Shown here piece by piece: positions 13,960 through 18,198 of a DNA stretch of 21,587 nt (positions are counted from its first letter, which is position 1; each line of letters opens with the position of its first letter). Origin of the DNA: a virus; the IMG/VR virus record IMGVR_UViG_3300021075_000020, positions 1 through 21,587 of that record; one strand, written 5' to 3'. The notes beneath the pieces were generated by a model. The model saw only the letters and a program-made list of their open reading frames with translations. It had not been told where the DNA came from and did not search any database. The translations under genes and the position numbers were made by a program.

Positions 13960-13982
13960 GTTCGGCGTACTCATATTGGCAG
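13960..13982 (-). other. attC half-site (attC7), truncated
   Basis: R'' box GCCGAAC at 13966-13960 lies five bases after the methyltransferase stop. It matches the GTTCGGC that opens the same cassette at attC6. Downstream an L''-like TATGCGGAACGCAGCG and a ribosome site follow, as in the other attC sites, but no L' or R' is found. The upper coordinate includes the stop-codon context. Confidence 0.6.
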
Positions 13983-14792
13983 CTCCATTTGTTGCTTTTC
14001 ACGTTCGAGCCAAGCACATGCGGCCTTGTGGAAATCTTTTTTTATCTCGAATCCGTATCCAGACCGCTTGCACCTGTGGGCAGCGATGATCGTTGACCCA
14101 CTCCCACAAACGGGATCAATGACGACCTCACCGGGATCAGTGAACAGATTGATTAGACGTTGTAAGAGCTTAACAGGTTTTTGCGTAGGATGGATCTTTT
14201 CGCTTTCGTTGTCTCTTGGCCATTCTATCGCATTGAAGACCATTTTTCCGCCGTTATTGAATTTTGGCAGCTTGTCACGATATAGGACGATCCCATATTC
14301 GCAGTTCCCTACTATCCGCATGTTTGCTTTCAGGACTTGCGCAGAAAAGTTTTTCGTGAAGACAAGATTTATATAGTTATTCAGTCCATGCTCTTTTGCC
14401 TTCTCGATGAGATACATTTGCTGATCGAACGCGCAGAAAACAACCATGCAAGGAGCTTTTCCAGTTTCTTTTGGTTCCTTTACCAGCATCGTCGAGCAGA
14501 AATGCAAGAACTCAGAGATGCGGAAATCTTTATCCGTGTCGAAGAACTCTTTATTCGCCAGCTCGCTTTCTCCCTTATTGCTATCCCCATTCACATACCA
14601 AGCTGGATTTGATCCATATGCGTTTTTCCCCACGTTGTAAGGGATGTCCGCAATTACAAGTTGAGCCTTTTGCAGTGCATGTCGCTTGTAATTCTGGAAG
14701 TGGTCATTGAAGATTTCATGTTTGCAGCGATTACGGAATGCCGAACAAGGCGATTGAGCCAACAGCGGTTGATTATCTTCTTTGGTTTTCAT
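13971..14792 (-). CDS. DNA methyltransferase, beta class (cassette VI)
   Basis: 273 aa. Catalytic motif IV is ADIPYNVG (DIPY in place of DPPY) near residue 48, preceding the S-adenosylmethionine motif I at about residues 224-246 (VIDPVCGSGSTIIAAHRC), so the order is IV then I, the beta arrangement of N6-adenine or N4-cytosine methyltransferases. HPTQKPVKLLQRLI is the typical motif before motif I. It would modify phage or host DNA at a short recognition site, plausibly as protection from restriction. Its start codon lies in the loop of attC6 and the first residues (KTKEDNQPLLAQ) are attC-encoded. Its GC content is lower than the neighbouring phage genes. Confidence 0.85.
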   Translation of the reverse strand: MKTKEDNQPLLAQSPCSAFRNRCKHEIFNDHFQNYKRHALQKAQLVIADIPYNVGKNAYGSNPAWYVNGDSNKGESELANKEFFDTDKDFRISEFLHFCSTMLVKEPKETGKAPCMVVFCAFDQQMYLIEKAKEHGLNNYINLVFTKNFSAQVLKANMRIVGNCEYGIVLYRDKLPKFNNGGKMVFNAIEWPRDNESEKIHPTQKPVKLLQRLINLFTDPGEVVIDPVCGSGSTIIAAHRCKRSGYGFEIKKDFHKAACAWLEREKQQMELPI

Positions 14793-14831
14793 AAGGTTTC
14801 TTTCCGCTGTGGCTCATCTTGGGCGTTGGGC
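14740..14831 (-). other. attC6 site
   Basis: Minus strand: R'' GCCCAAC, then TGAGCCACAGCGG, loop, CCGCTGTTGGCTCA, then R' GTTCGGC. Stem bases pair with extrahelical T and A in the L' arm. The loop holds the end of the Lar-like gene and the ATG of the methyltransferase. Confidence 0.85.
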
Positions 14832-15115
14832 TCAGAAATATAGCGAGTGTTCCATTCATTGCAGAGGTTCTGCACATCTTGTGGGTTGACTTTTAGCTTT
14901 TCCTTGTCGTCGTCAAAGTCTGACAGTTGCGAAGATACAGTGTGCCATCCGGTGCTACACCAGCACGCAGAACACTCAATGGAAGCGTGCCAGTGTGGGC
15001 GCGGGTATCGGTCTGAGTCGTCTCGGATTCGTAGATCGAGGTGAGCGTCACACCCGCAGAATGGACAGCCCAACAAGTCAGTCGAGCCAACAGCGGACGA
15101 ATGTTCAGTTTGCAT
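14789..15115 (-). CDS. Lar-like restriction alleviation protein (cassette V)
   Basis: 108 aa from ATG 15115 in the attC5 loop; a longer frame from 15142 reads back through the hairpin and is rejected. After the attC-encoded head MQTEHSSAVGSTDLLG, residues 17-21 are CPFCG and residues 44-52 (IECSACWCS) give the second cysteine pair, followed near the end by EWNTRY. Two zinc knuckles and the closing W-N-x-R are the signature of Lar-family proteins, which relieve type I restriction in the Rac prophage context. ATGA overlap with the methyltransferase couples the two anti-restriction candidates. Tail PNAQDEPQRKETL is encoded by attC6. Confidence 0.75.
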   Translation of the reverse strand: MQTEHSSAVGSTDLLGCPFCGCDAHLDLRIRDDSDRYPRPHWHASIECSACWCSTGWHTVSSQLSDFDDDKEKLKVNPQDVQNLCNEWNTRYISEPNAQDEPQRKETL

Positions 15116-15156
15116 AGTTGCCTTTCTCCCGCTGTGGCTCACTTCCGGCGTTGGGC
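15068..15156 (-). other. attC5 site
   Basis: R'' GCCCAAC, AGTGAGCCACAGCGG, loop, CCGCTGTTGGCTCGACT, R' GTTGGGC. 88 of 89 bases are identical to attC4; the only difference is in the R'' box (GCCCAAC here, GCCGAAC in attC4). Confidence 0.9.
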
Positions 15157-15416
15157 TGAAGAAGAACTTTGTCTATCCGTTCTCGGATTCCTTCCTGTCC
15201 CATGCGGTCGAGATAGCCTCGGCATTCAACAAGTAGTTCCCGCAGTCTCGCGTTTTCACGCTCCAGAGTCGTCATAGTGTCCCATATCGGCTCCGTTGGC
15301 GTAACGCGTCCGGTGCTGTCGTCGATTGATTCCATCCATGCTGCCTCAGAGCGTGGTGTACCCGTAAAGCCCAACAAGTCAGTCGAGCCAACAGCGGACG
15401 AATGTTCAGTTTGCAT
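15105..15416 (-). CDS. Coiled-coil cassette protein (cassette IV), 103 aa
   Basis: Start ATG 15416 lies in the loop of attC4, preceded by GGGAGAAAGG. The first 16 residues (MQTEHSSAVGSTDLLG) are encoded by attC and are identical to those of cassette V. The unique part has a polar linker (TGRVTPTEPIWDT) and a leucine-heptad helix TLERENARLRELLVECRGYL, likely a dimerising coiled coil. The tail PNAGSEPQREKGNYAN is encoded by attC5. Function unknown; the short coiled coil resembles small phage regulators only in a general way. Confidence 0.65.
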   Translation of the reverse strand: MQTEHSSAVGSTDLLGFTGTPRSEAAWMESIDDSTGRVTPTEPIWDTMTTLERENARLRELLVECRGYLDRMGQEGIRERIDKVLLQPNAGSEPQREKGNYAN

Positions 15417-15457
15417 AGTTGCCTTTCTCCCGCTGTGGCTCACTTCCGGCGTTCGGC
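15369..15457 (-). other. attC4 site
   Basis: R'' GCCGAAC, AGTGAGCCACAGCGG, loop with ATG of cassette IV, CCGCTGTTGGCTCGACT, R' GTTGGGC. R'' matches the GTTCGGC that opens cassette III at attC3. Confidence 0.9.
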
Positions 15458-15747
15458 GTAGAAGATACATCTTCCAGAAATGCTTGCCCAACTGGAGATC
15501 CGAGCCACTGAATGATTGTTGCAGCAACCATTTCATCTCGTTCCGTTATTTCTCCTCTGTGGGTTCCGTCTCCCATCAGATACTCAAACAATCCACTGTC
15601 CTGCCGACTTCTCCAAGCATCAGCGAAGCGTCCTTCTAATGGGTTTCGTTTTATTCGATATGCCGCACGACCAGAATGCCGAACAAGACGGTGCAGCGAA
15701 CCCCGTCCGTTCTCCTCTTCCGAGCTTTGTTTCGTATCAGTTTTCAT
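15406..15747 (-). CDS. Hypothetical cassette protein (cassette III), 113 aa
   Basis: Start ATG 15747 lies in the attC3 loop after GGAGG and overlaps the previous TGA (ATGA). Recognisable core: RIKRNPLEGRFADAWRSR, then ITERDEMVAATIIQWLGSPV and GQAFLEDV. I recall similar I-Q-W-L-G-S-P-V-G-x-x-F-l segments in small phage and metagenomic proteins of unknown function. The N-terminal 30 or so residues (KTDTKQSSEEENGRG...) are largely attC-encoded, and the tail PNAGSEPQREKGNYAN is identical to that of cassette IV because attC4 and attC5 are almost the same. No catalytic motif is seen. Confidence 0.7.
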   Translation of the reverse strand: MKTDTKQSSEEENGRGSLHRLVRHSGRAAYRIKRNPLEGRFADAWRSRQDSGLFEYLMGDGTHRGEITERDEMVAATIIQWLGSPVGQAFLEDVSSTPNAGSEPQREKGNYAN

Positions 15748-15789
15748 TTTGTATTTTCCTCCACGGGGCCGCTGACCTCTGCGTTGGGC
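15678..15789 (-). other. attC3 site
   Basis: R'' GCCCAAC, GGTCAGCGGCCCCGT, loop, ACGGGGTTCGCTGCACC, R' GTTCGGC. Extrahelical TT and C in the L' arm. Cassette II opens with TTGGGC, and this R'' is its complement. Confidence 0.85.
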
Positions 15790-15992
15790 GAAGAAGAATC
15801 AGGCATAGGCCAGTCCTCATCCGTCTCACGTAGAGGCGCGCATTTTCTGCAATAGTAGATACCAGAGGCTGGCTGCATATCGAATCGTTTGAGTTGCGAC
15901 GCTTCCTCTTCGCACAGATCACATATTCCCGGCCCGCTGATCTCGCGAGATACTGGAGGAGGTTCTGGCATGATGGCTGAAAAGCCCAACAT
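15744..15992 (-). CDS. Zinc-ribbon-like cassette protein (cassette II), 82 aa
   Basis: Residues 25-28 (CDLC) and a second CRKC about 20 residues further (YYCRKC) form two CxxC knuckles, with the intervening EEEASQLKRFDMQPASGI, so a small zinc ribbon is likely. ATG 15992 lies inside attC2 (first residues MLGF from the R' box); an alternative start is ATG 15971. The tail SPNAEVSGPVEENTK is encoded by attC3. Unrecognised beyond the metal site; proteins of this kind could bind nucleic acid or partner proteins. Confidence 0.65.
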   Translation of the reverse strand: MLGFSAIMPEPPPVSREISGPGICDLCEEEASQLKRFDMQPASGIYYCRKCAPLRETDEDWPMPDSSSPNAEVSGPVEENTK

Positions 15993-16037
15993 GTCGATGG
16001 ACCAAACGCTTCGCGTTGGTCATCTTGGGCGTTGGGA
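15984..16037 (-). other. attC2 site (short form)
   Basis: 54 bases: R'' TCCCAAC, GATGACCAACGC, a three-base loop, GCGTTTGGTCCATC, R' GTTGGGC. Extra T and C in the L' arm are the extrahelical bases. R'' here begins with T, outside the usual RYYYAAC, but matches cassette I opening GTTGGGA exactly. Confidence 0.85.
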
Positions 16038-16131
16038 TCGGATAGATCATTGCTTTTCATCGGGTTCCGCAATCGGTTGATTATCAGTCCAGATTTGCTA
16101 CCATCCCGATTCAAGAAAGGGGGTGGTAAGC

Positions 16132-16269
16132 ATGGCGAAGAACGAAAGCACATCGAAATCCGTGGCATCGAAGGCATCGGCGATCCTACGCAGTTCGTCC
16201 GCGAGCAAGGCGGCGAAAAGCGTGGCAGCGTCCGCATTGACGCAGACGCGAGACAAAAAGAAGAAGTAA
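16132..16269 (+). CDS. Small basic Ala/Ser/Lys protein, 45 aa, on opposite strand (cassette I)
   Basis: The only convincing plus-strand gene: MAKNESTSKSVASKASAILR, then SASKAAKSVAASALTQT, ending RDKKKK. Preceded by AAAGGGGGTGG with good spacing. The A/S/K-rich repeat (SKxxASKAS ... SKAAKSxAxSALTQT) resembles a short protein type I recall from many bacterial genomes and integron cassettes, function unknown to me. It converges with the 94-aa gene, their ends separated by six bases, and is antisense to the array direction, so it needs its own promoter. Confidence 0.65.
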   Translation: MAKNESTSKSVASKASAILRSSSASKAAKSVAASALTQTRDKKKK

Positions 16270-16275
16270 GGCAGA

Positions 16276-16560
16276 TCATACAGAGATCCTCCTTACATGC
16301 AAGATTGCCCGTGAAGGTATGGTCATATCGCCACATCTTTGCGGGCATTTCTCGCGTGAGATATTCGCAGACAGCACCTTTGCATCTTCTCCGTCATGAA
16401 TGAGCCATCCGATTGATGAGCATATCAAGGGTTCATTTTCTGAATCATCGCTCGACCATCCGGGCCGGTAGTGGGAATCAACCCACTCGACAAGAACAAG
16501 AGGAAATCCCAACAAGACGTTCGAGCGAACAGCCCCTGGTTGATCAGTTTGGTTATCCAT
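16276..16560 (-). CDS. Hypothetical cassette protein (cassette I), 94 aa
   Basis: Start ATG 16560 lies in the loop of attC1, directly after the perfect Shine-Dalgarno AAGGAGGAC. The first residues (MDNQTDQPGAVRSNVLLG) are attC-encoded. The body FPLVLVEWVDSHYRPGW, then CSSIGWLIHDGEDAKVLSAN and MTIPSRAILHVRRI resembles a family of small phage/cassette proteins with v-W-x-D-s-h ... s-v-G-w-l-x-x-d ... i-P-x-x-a-I-x-x-v. Function unknown. It overlaps the end of the 84-aa gene by 8 bases. Confidence 0.7.
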   Translation of the reverse strand: MDNQTDQPGAVRSNVLLGFPLVLVEWVDSHYRPGWSSDDSENEPLICSSIGWLIHDGEDAKVLSANISREKCPQRCGDMTIPSRAILHVRRISV

Positions 16561-16598
16561 TGTCCTCCTTGGGGCTGCCGCTCAACTTTGCGTTGGGT
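16507..16598 (-). other. attC1 site (array entry)
   Basis: R'' ACCCAAC, GTTGAGCGGCAGCCCC, loop, GGGGCTGTTCGCTCGAAC, R' GTTGGGA. The stem has extrahelical TT and G. No matching TTGGGT cassette opening is found upstream of the 84-aa gene, so the first unit lacks its own left boundary. Confidence 0.85.
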
Positions 16599-16807
16599 TT
16601 TTGATTCGTCTCCACACGTTTCATTCCGAGAGCTTCCCGAGCAGCATCGCGCACCCATGGCCCGACAGAAAATCCTTCGCACTCTGGTGTCAGGAATAGC
16701 ATTGCGAATCCCCGTAGCCTCGCGTTCTGTAGTTCCAGCAAAATTCTCGCTTCTCGCATTTCGCAAGCATCAGCGTTCCGCATATAGCCGTCGATTTCTT
16801 CGCTCAT
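16553..16807 (-). CDS. Hypothetical protein linking helicase operon and array, 84 aa
   Basis: ATG 16807 overlaps the helicase TGA (ATGA). Helical N-terminus MSEEIDGYMRNADACEMREA then RILLELQNARLRGFAMLFLT and SVGPWVRDAAREALGM; unrecognised. The tail KPNAKLSGSPKEDNG is encoded by attC1, so the 3' end of this phage-coupled gene is attC sequence. Either the gene is itself an old cassette that lost its left boundary, or an attC-bearing piece replaced its original end. Confidence 0.6.
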   Translation of the reverse strand: MSEEIDGYMRNADACEMREARILLELQNARLRGFAMLFLTPECEGFSVGPWVRDAAREALGMKRVETNQKPNAKLSGSPKEDNG

Positions 16808-18198
16808 TTCTTAGCCTGCCTTTCTGATTTGTTGTTGCTGTATGCCTTTTTCGTTGTGGAGTTGAAGCGGGTAAATTGCCCCCAGAATTCCAGGTTGATC
16901 GTACCAATCGGGCCGTTCCTCTGTTTGGCCAGGATCGCCTCAGCCGGTTCGCCATTCTGTGCAAACTCAGCCTTCTCCTCGTCGGAAAGCTCCTTGTCCT
17001 TGAACGGACGATGAATCAGAAGCGCCACGTCGGCATCCTGCTCGATCTGGCCGCTCTCCCGCAGATTACTCAGCGCCGGCCGCTTCCCATCGTTCTCACG
17101 GTTCAGCTGGGCGCACACGATCACCGGAACCTTCAGCTCCTTCGCCATGGCCTTCAGGTTCATCGAAATGTCAGCAACCTCAGCCGCCCGGGAAAACTCC
17201 GCCCGCTTGCTGGGAGCCCGTAGAAGCTGCAAATAATCGATCACGATCAGTCGAGCACCGCGCTTTGTCACCGCCCGCCGCGCCCGCGCACGCAGATCCA
17301 TGATCGTCAGGCTGGGAGTCTCATCGATCCACAGGAGGCTCCGCGCGATCTCATCCGCACTCGCGCCAATCCGCGGAAGATCCCCTTTTTCAAGGAACCC
17401 ATCCCGCCACCGTTGTAAATTGATGGAGCTGTGCGTTCCAATCATCCGCTCCCCGAGCTCAGCCCCGCTCATTTCCAGCGAATACAAAGCCACTGGCACG
17501 CCATTCAAAGCATTGTGAGTTGCCATCTGCACGCCGAGCACCGTCTTGCCCATGCTTGGCCGACCAGCGATCACGTAGAGCAAAGTCTTTTTCAGCCCGC
17601 CCGTCATGCGGTCCAGGTCAACAAATCCCGTCGTTAGGCCAATAGGTTTTCCTCGATTGTTGAATACCGCCTCAAGGCTATTCACCGCCTCATCGATAAA
17701 CTTCTTCACCGGCTTCAGGGCGTCATCCGATTTTCCGCCCCCACGAATCTCCATGAATGTCTGCTCGACCTCATTCATCAGCTCATCGGCTCCTCCCCTA
17801 TGGGAGCGCGCCAGCCGCTCCATCCGCACACAGCCAGCGATCACCTTGCGCTTCGCGTGTTCCTCCAGAACCAGCTCCGCATAATGGTCCCAATTCGCAG
17901 CCGAAGGAACGAACACAAACAGATCCGTCACAAAGCAAGCGATGTTCTCCACATCCGGAATCTCCCGCTTCTCCAGCTCCGCCGTCAGCGTGATAATGTC
18001 CGCCGGCTTGAGCTTCGCCCGCATATCCCGCAGCGTCTCGTAGATCGCCGCATGCACAGGAACAATAAACGCCTCGGGCTCCATGTTTGCGCACGAATCA
18101 ATCACGTCCGCATCCATCAGCATCGAGCCCAGCAGGCCACGCTCCGCGTCCACATTTTGCGGTAATCCAATCGCCGCCTTCGTTTCATTTTTGCTCAT
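16804..18198 (-). CDS. dnaB: Replicative DNA helicase, DnaB family, 464 aa
   Basis: N-terminal domain starts LPQNVDAERGLLGSMLMDAD, the usual DnaB opening. The RecA-like domain has Walker A AGRPSMGKT at about residues 227-235, Walker B RLIVIDYLQLL near 328, and the later QIEQDADVALLIHRP and KQRNGPIG arginine-finger region. Length and domain order are normal for the family. It unwinds DNA at the replication fork as a hexamer. The 311-aa protein upstream, one base away, is a likely initiator or loader partner. The motif AACGAAAGAA lies seven bases before ATG. Confidence 0.95.
   Translation of the reverse strand: MSKNETKAAIGLPQNVDAERGLLGSMLMDADVIDSCANMEPEAFIVPVHAAIYETLRDMRAKLKPADIITLTAELEKREIPDVENIACFVTDLFVFVPSAANWDHYAELVLEEHAKRKVIAGCVRMERLARSHRGGADELMNEVEQTFMEIRGGGKSDDALKPVKKFIDEAVNSLEAVFNNRGKPIGLTTGFVDLDRMTGGLKKTLLYVIAGRPSMGKTVLGVQMATHNALNGVPVALYSLEMSGAELGERMIGTHSSINLQRWRDGFLEKGDLPRIGASADEIARSLLWIDETPSLTIMDLRARARRAVTKRGARLIVIDYLQLLRAPSKRAEFSRAAEVADISMNLKAMAKELKVPVIVCAQLNRENDGKRPALSNLRESGQIEQDADVALLIHRPFKDKELSDEEKAEFAQNGEPAEAILAKQRNGPIGTINLEFWGQFTRFNSTTKKAYSNNKSERQAKK

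Follow-up and report, generated by a model that had tools for sequence, protein, structure and literature searches.

Do tailed phages own integrons, and how would the genes of their cassettes be expressed? Integrons are known as bacterial platforms, and their cassettes usually need an external promoter. The question was raised by positions 1-21,587 of the virus record IMGVR_UViG_3300021075_000020 (the window, 21,587 nucleotides), which contain a cassette region at positions 13960-16598. This locus is probably a phage-integron cassette array without an integrase of its own, in which inverted cassettes would be read through from the replication genes and translationally coupled by their attC recombination sites. 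Tailed phages appear to own integrons, and a recombination site doubling as a translation coupler would solve the problem of expression.

The window was a fragment of a tailed phage, and every identifiable phage gene lay on the minus strand. Along this strand, the replication genes and dnaB were followed by the cassette region and then by the terminase, portal and major head genes. A terminase (phrog_2, 1e-9) and structural genes (major head, 2e-44) were present on the contig, and dnaB was identified (Pfam, 3e-83). Both flanks were as an earlier sequence-only reading had placed them. A megablast search of the whole window against phages gave no match.

attC sites between dnaB and the terminase

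A search of the window against Rfam gave no match at gathering scores; therefore, a covariance model (R1), distinct from that of IntegronFinder, was built in-house from 24 attC sites. The sequence-only reading had described six attC sites with their boxes and extrahelical bases and had suggested a covariance-model search of the minus strand. R1 reproduced this array, matching the 21.6 kb window at exactly six places (E 8e-13 to 6e-8), every one on the minus strand. The model was specific, giving two weak matches, both on one contig, across 40 other viral loci totalling 603 kb. Moreover, a strict rule-based finder recovered four of the six sites and none in shuffled windows.

The fold was conserved over the 24 sites, with both sides changed in 15 of the 19 pairs in at least one sequence, and two extrahelical bases occupied fixed positions in the R''/L'' arm. 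The R', L', L'' and R'' boxes were present in the six sites of the window. The attC array is not a product of chance. Several different cassettes were separated by attC sites of one orientation, which makes the region a cassette array; formally, the window itself is a cluster of attC sites lacking an integron integrase (CALIN), having at least two attC sites and no intI nearby.

Cassette orientation and reading frame

In ordinary integrons, the recombining strand and the coding strand of the cassette gene are opposite ones. The main cassette genes of the window were reversed, that is, placed on the recombining strand itself, and were not read toward their own attC, which is the usual but not strictly defining arrangement. 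The sequence-only reading had missed this reversal. The elements of the array and its neighbouring genes are given below. Comparison loci and contigs carry L-numbers (L001, L081 and so on); the contigs all come from metagenomes, many of them as fragments.

16506-16598, minus (recombining strand): attC-F (R1 57.1 bits, E 3e-10); loop with AGGAGG and the start codon (ATG) of the following gene
16276-16560, minus: cassette F gene, reversed, 94 residues, no assigned function, no Pfam match; open reading frame (ORF) starts in the attC-F loop
16132-16269, plus: 45-residue ORF in cassette F, rich in K, S and A, canonical orientation, read from the sequence; no Pfam match
15983-16037, minus: attC-E, short and nearly loopless (R1 47 bits, E 6e-8), outside the training set
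15744-15992, minus: cassette E gene, 82 residues, CxxC zinc-ribbon-like by eye; ORF enters attC-D as ..SSPNAEV..
15677-15789, minus: attC-D (R1 62.7 bits, E 2e-11); loop with GGAGG and ATG; stop of gene E overlaps start of gene D by 4 nucleotides
15406-15747, minus: cassette D gene, 113 residues, no assigned function; ORF starts in the attC-D loop and ends in attC-C
15368-15457, minus: attC-C (R1 67.5 bits, E 1e-12)
15105-15416, minus: cassette C gene, 103 residues, no assigned function; taken from an internal ATG, in the attC-C loop, of ORF 15105-15536
15067-15156, minus: attC-B (R1 66 bits, E 3e-12)
14789-15115, minus: cassette B gene, weak Lar-like restriction alleviation protein (Pfam Lar 2e-4, below cutoff; phrog_599 Lar-like, 3e-8)
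14739-14831, minus: attC-A (R1 68.5 bits, E 8e-13); loop with the overlap of gene B stop and methyltransferase start (ATGA)
13971-14792, minus: cassette A gene, orphan N6/N4 DNA methyltransferase (Pfam N6_N4_Mtase, 1e-25); same cassette in L002 and L003
13957-13966, minus: lone terminal R'-type core at the terminase-proximal array end, seen in the sequence; possible degenerate attI (attI-like-motif score not significant)
16804-18198, minus: dnaB helicase gene, upstream of the array (Pfam DnaB_C, 3e-83; 90% identical in L082)
16553-16807, minus: small gene between dnaB and the first attC; ORF enters attC-F in frame 0 (..KPNAK..) and stops in its loop
11541-13298, minus: terminase large subunit gene, downstream flank (phrog_2, 1e-9; 82% identical to L081)

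The inversion extended beyond the window. The longer ORF between attC sites was reversed in 36 cassettes and canonical in 9 on 14 phage contigs, whereas 5 were reversed and 34 canonical at ten chromosomal loci of Verrucomicrobiota (L122, L123 and L200-L207). Phage contigs that were found afterwards and not used to form the idea had 26 reversed and 6 canonical cassettes, and those with more distant integrases had 10 and 0, respectively, which adds up to 36 and 6. Other bacterial phyla were abandoned as a chromosomal control because of too few R1 matches.

The reading frame was biased as well. Genes B-E of the window and the dnaB-proximal gene read across the R' core that followed in the frame in which AAC is a codon (..PNA..) and terminated within that attC, where the next start was situated. 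The AAC frame stopped inside attC at 71/72 phage sites (49 expected from shuffles), in comparison with 12/65 chromosomal sites (35 expected). The values for the later phage contig sets were 53/56 and 23/24, and all phage sets together gave 147/152. AAC was the entry frame at 49/65, 34/46 and 15/21 phage sites and at 14/39 chromosomal sites, and the latter had no comparable frame preference on this strand. The commonest start was located one base before the stop (ATGA), at 26, 19 and 5 sites in the three phage sets. A Shine-Dalgarno motif in the loop separated the two groups weakly (phage 19/74, chromosome 12/67). The AAC-frame stop inside attC offers a readable signature separating phage-type from chromosomal cassettes. 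Furthermore, the dnaB stop overlapped the start of the following gene by 4 nucleotides, and such reading-frame overlaps ran unbroken from dnaB into the array.

Two cassettes on Verrucomicrobiota chromosomes (L207:1305-2143 and L200:673-1166) had the phage-type layout, with start and stop inside attC; they are possibly phage-derived or possibly a chance outcome in GC-rich DNA.

The sequences suggest how recombination, read-through transcription and translational coupling would be combined. If these loci work as known integrons do, IntI would place new cassettes at attI and rearrange them by recombination between folded single-stranded attC sites. The known cleavage of attC by the integrase is at G|TTRRRY (Qi et al. 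2023; PMC9892861). This crossover would fall within AAC on the coding strand, and each exchange would restore AAC and preserve the frame. Any cassette would therefore join any other in frame, running into its attC, where the attC stop would end the gene and the loop would start the next. The recombining strand is also the coding strand, so that the cassettes lie the opposite way round from those of ordinary integrons and would be read as part of the phage operon. Transcription would be supplied by read-through from dnaB, and coupled translation would proceed without a promoter belonging to the cassette. Recombination in the window, which lacks intI, would need an integrase supplied in trans, whether by a relative, by a co-infecting phage or by the host; otherwise, the array would be frozen.

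Integrases and arrays in related phages

A complete integron has intI on the same molecule; this gene was absent from the window and present in the sister phage L081. L081 was a close relative of the window phage (terminase 82% and portal 76% identical), and a tyrosine recombinase of 317 residues was encoded between its cassettes and its terminase. The protein passed the NCBI integron integrase model TIGR02249 with 266.8 bits against a cutoff of 265. Its best solved match was V. cholerae IntI4, and the catalytic positions were conserved in the alignment. Two scans of viral contigs gave approximately 50 contigs with relatives of this integrase (32-60% identity), some of which were near-duplicates. 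The integron integrase model matched 14 of the 17 records tested, 9 of them above the cutoff. At least 22 of the intI-bearing contigs also encoded a terminase, with several terminase families represented, and most of the contigs are therefore true phages. The first terminase match beside intI in L112 was discounted because the same region matched a helicase; a separate terminase was located there afterwards.

The intI-bearing viral contigs often had attC sites and an attI-like motif adjoining intI. This motif, ccnAACanTGATTnnGC, was located upstream of intI in many phage contigs and likewise in Verrucomicrobiota chromosomes. The order in the relatives along the direction of transcription was dnaB, cassettes, attI-like site, intI and terminase. 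Just before intI in L107 and L108, the stop that ends the AAC frame downstream of the attI-like site overlapped the apparent intI start (ATGA), so that coupling to the final cassette may extend to intI itself there.

The main phage IntI group and three Verrucomicrobiota integrases grouped in a single clade with full support, separately from 30 further bacterial integrases, a bacterial sample limited by the search patterns. The nearest bacterial IntI, from Verrucomicrobiota, was 54-56% identical to phage IntI. The tree placement suggests, short of proof, Verrucomicrobiota hosts. An integron-integrase-like gene, 38% identical to the L081 IntI, was also seen in the virus Rctr41k (KX853513; L208:4680-5678). 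This virus is not in Table 1 of Qi et al. (2023), and it was left out as a phage-integron case because R1 found no attC there.

The locus between dnaB and the terminase was variable. L082 belonged to the same phage group as the window (dnaB 90% and terminase 79% identical) and had another array in the corresponding position. Up to nine attC-like sites (weakest E 0.37), together with other genes, took up its whole dnaB-terminase interval, in which no integrase was found. One compact attC site was present in L211 (dnaB 79% identical, terminase otherwise different), and in L085 and L086, which are more distant, dnaB and the terminase nearly abutted. L113 (7869-10948) and L114 had a less closely related integron integrase in the same dnaB-intI-terminase position, which hints at a separate integrase acquisition at that position.

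Rival readings, known integrons and cargo

On one rival reading, illegitimate or homologous recombination copied a stray attC cluster out of a chromosomal integron of the host; the cluster would then be inactive in the phage, and its orientation a matter of chance. The contig without an integrase and the many attC sites in Verrucomicrobiota genomes are consistent with such an origin, and capture of this kind is proposed for other phages by Qi et al. (PMC9892861). However, sister phages had different arrays at the same locus, one of them with intI, and Verrucomicrobiota chromosomal cassettes were oppositely oriented, with the AAC-frame stop rare (12/65). Stop-to-start overlaps along the gene chain from dnaB through the array also argue against a stray cluster, which is an unlikely explanation. 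Because intI occurs at the same locus in close relatives, the window is better read as a phage integron. The hairpins could alternatively be attC-derived linkers for translational coupling or homologous recombination that are no longer integrase substrates; stop and start codons were indeed located in the loops, and two neighbouring sites were 99% identical over 90 nucleotides, sufficient for homologous exchange. Coupling alone would need neither R' cores nor extrahelical bases, yet the cores and both bases were kept across very different sites, and IntI and the attI-like motif adjoined arrays in relatives, which makes mere linkers quite unlikely. A chimeric assembly of a bacterial cassette array with phage genes is conceivable for a metagenomic contig; it is highly improbable, as separate IMG/VR samples gave the order dnaB-array-terminase or array-intI-terminase and the reading frames overlapped continuously from dnaB into the array.

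Several observations weigh against the reading as a phage-integron cassette array. A tyrosine recombinase was not found on the window contig, in agreement with the sequence-only reading, which had seen no integrase. The window had no clear attI: the array end was singled out by the motif search only if a 1-nucleotide gap was permitted, and the claim of an attI was dropped because the ungapped search did not pick out this end. Orientation was called by ORF length, as the strand of the longer ORF between neighbouring attC sites, and the Fisher p of 3e-10 for phages against Verrucomicrobiota chromosomes overstates independence because sites within one contig are related. Moreover, cassette F retained one canonical ORF on the plus strand, and attC-E contained no AAC-frame stop. 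The layout was not universal, as the start lay inside attC in 26 and the stop in 23 of the 36 reversed cassettes of the first phage set.

The sequence-only reading had treated an array in a phage genome as unusual. Qi et al. (2023; PMC9892861) already describe attC clusters without an integrase and complete integrons in phages, some of whose attC sites recombine with IntI1. The attC arrays, small ORFs and orphan methyltransferases are shared with those phages. In that study, the cases with an integrase are prophages of the Vibrio, P1 and Shewanella kinds, and the TJE1 and PH101 arrays are described as typically oriented, whereas inverted frame-locked cassettes and a dnaB-array-intI-terminase locus are not described in the available text. 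R1 found no sites in TJE1 and is hence uninformative on its arrays. The sedentary chromosomal integrons of Verrucomicrobiota share the nearest bacterial IntI, the attC type and a similar attI-like motif with the phage loci; they differ in the canonical gene orientation and the rarity of the AAC-frame stop (12/65). The reverse integron of Treponema denticola has intI and the array in one direction (PMC4909258), and intI and the cassette genes likewise share a direction in the phage loci. Unlike in T. denticola, the intI-attC geometry of the phage loci was usual, the genes were flipped, and intI was downstream of the cassettes. Termination-reinitiation via ORF-11 of attI1 or short attC-borne ORFs aids cassette translation in class 1 integrons (PMC8876359). 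That coupling concerns canonically read cassettes, and a common reading frame across cassettes is not described in the available text. A literature search, whose coverage lay outside preprints and most subscription journals, gave no report of inverted or frame-locked cassettes.

The cargo with matches in the window consisted of the orphan N6/N4 methyltransferase and the weak Lar-like protein. Other phage cassettes encoded MT-A70, C5 and other methyltransferase matches, a helix-turn-helix protein and a polymerase-beta-like protein, and most had no assigned function. This cargo would fit counter-restriction, with a putative counter-defence role for the methyltransferase and Lar-like genes, and the arrays may provide a route for phages to swap such genes. 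No match to the ten chromosomal array loci was obtained for any of 45 phage cassette proteins; with so small a host sample, uptake from host integrons may still occur. The acquisition of cargo from host integrons, as proposed from the sequence alone, is so far unsupported because the phage cassettes are inverted and frame-locked, unlike those of Verrucomicrobiota chromosomes. The evidence leans slightly toward a distinct integron branch owned by phages, with inverted cassettes and one reading frame through attC, which unrelated phages trade in a pool separate from host integrons. If so, any gene could plug into the lytic operon by a single recombination step. Whether phages and host integrons draw on one cassette pool or two becomes testable, and the layout may be usable as a modular cloning design.

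Cassettes recurred among the phage contigs: the N6/N4 methyltransferase cassette was found in the window, L002 and L003, and a C5-methyltransferase-like cassette was common to L108 and L218. L002 (L002:1-4068) was a 4-kb viral contig composed solely of cassettes, with a 122-nucleotide terminal direct repeat spanning one attC; it represents either a cycle in the assembly or a circle of several cassettes that had been excised. A methyltransferase gene in L001 (L001:1111-1952) had an N-terminus resembling an attC-encoded leader with no full attC adjoining, and is perhaps a fossil cassette.
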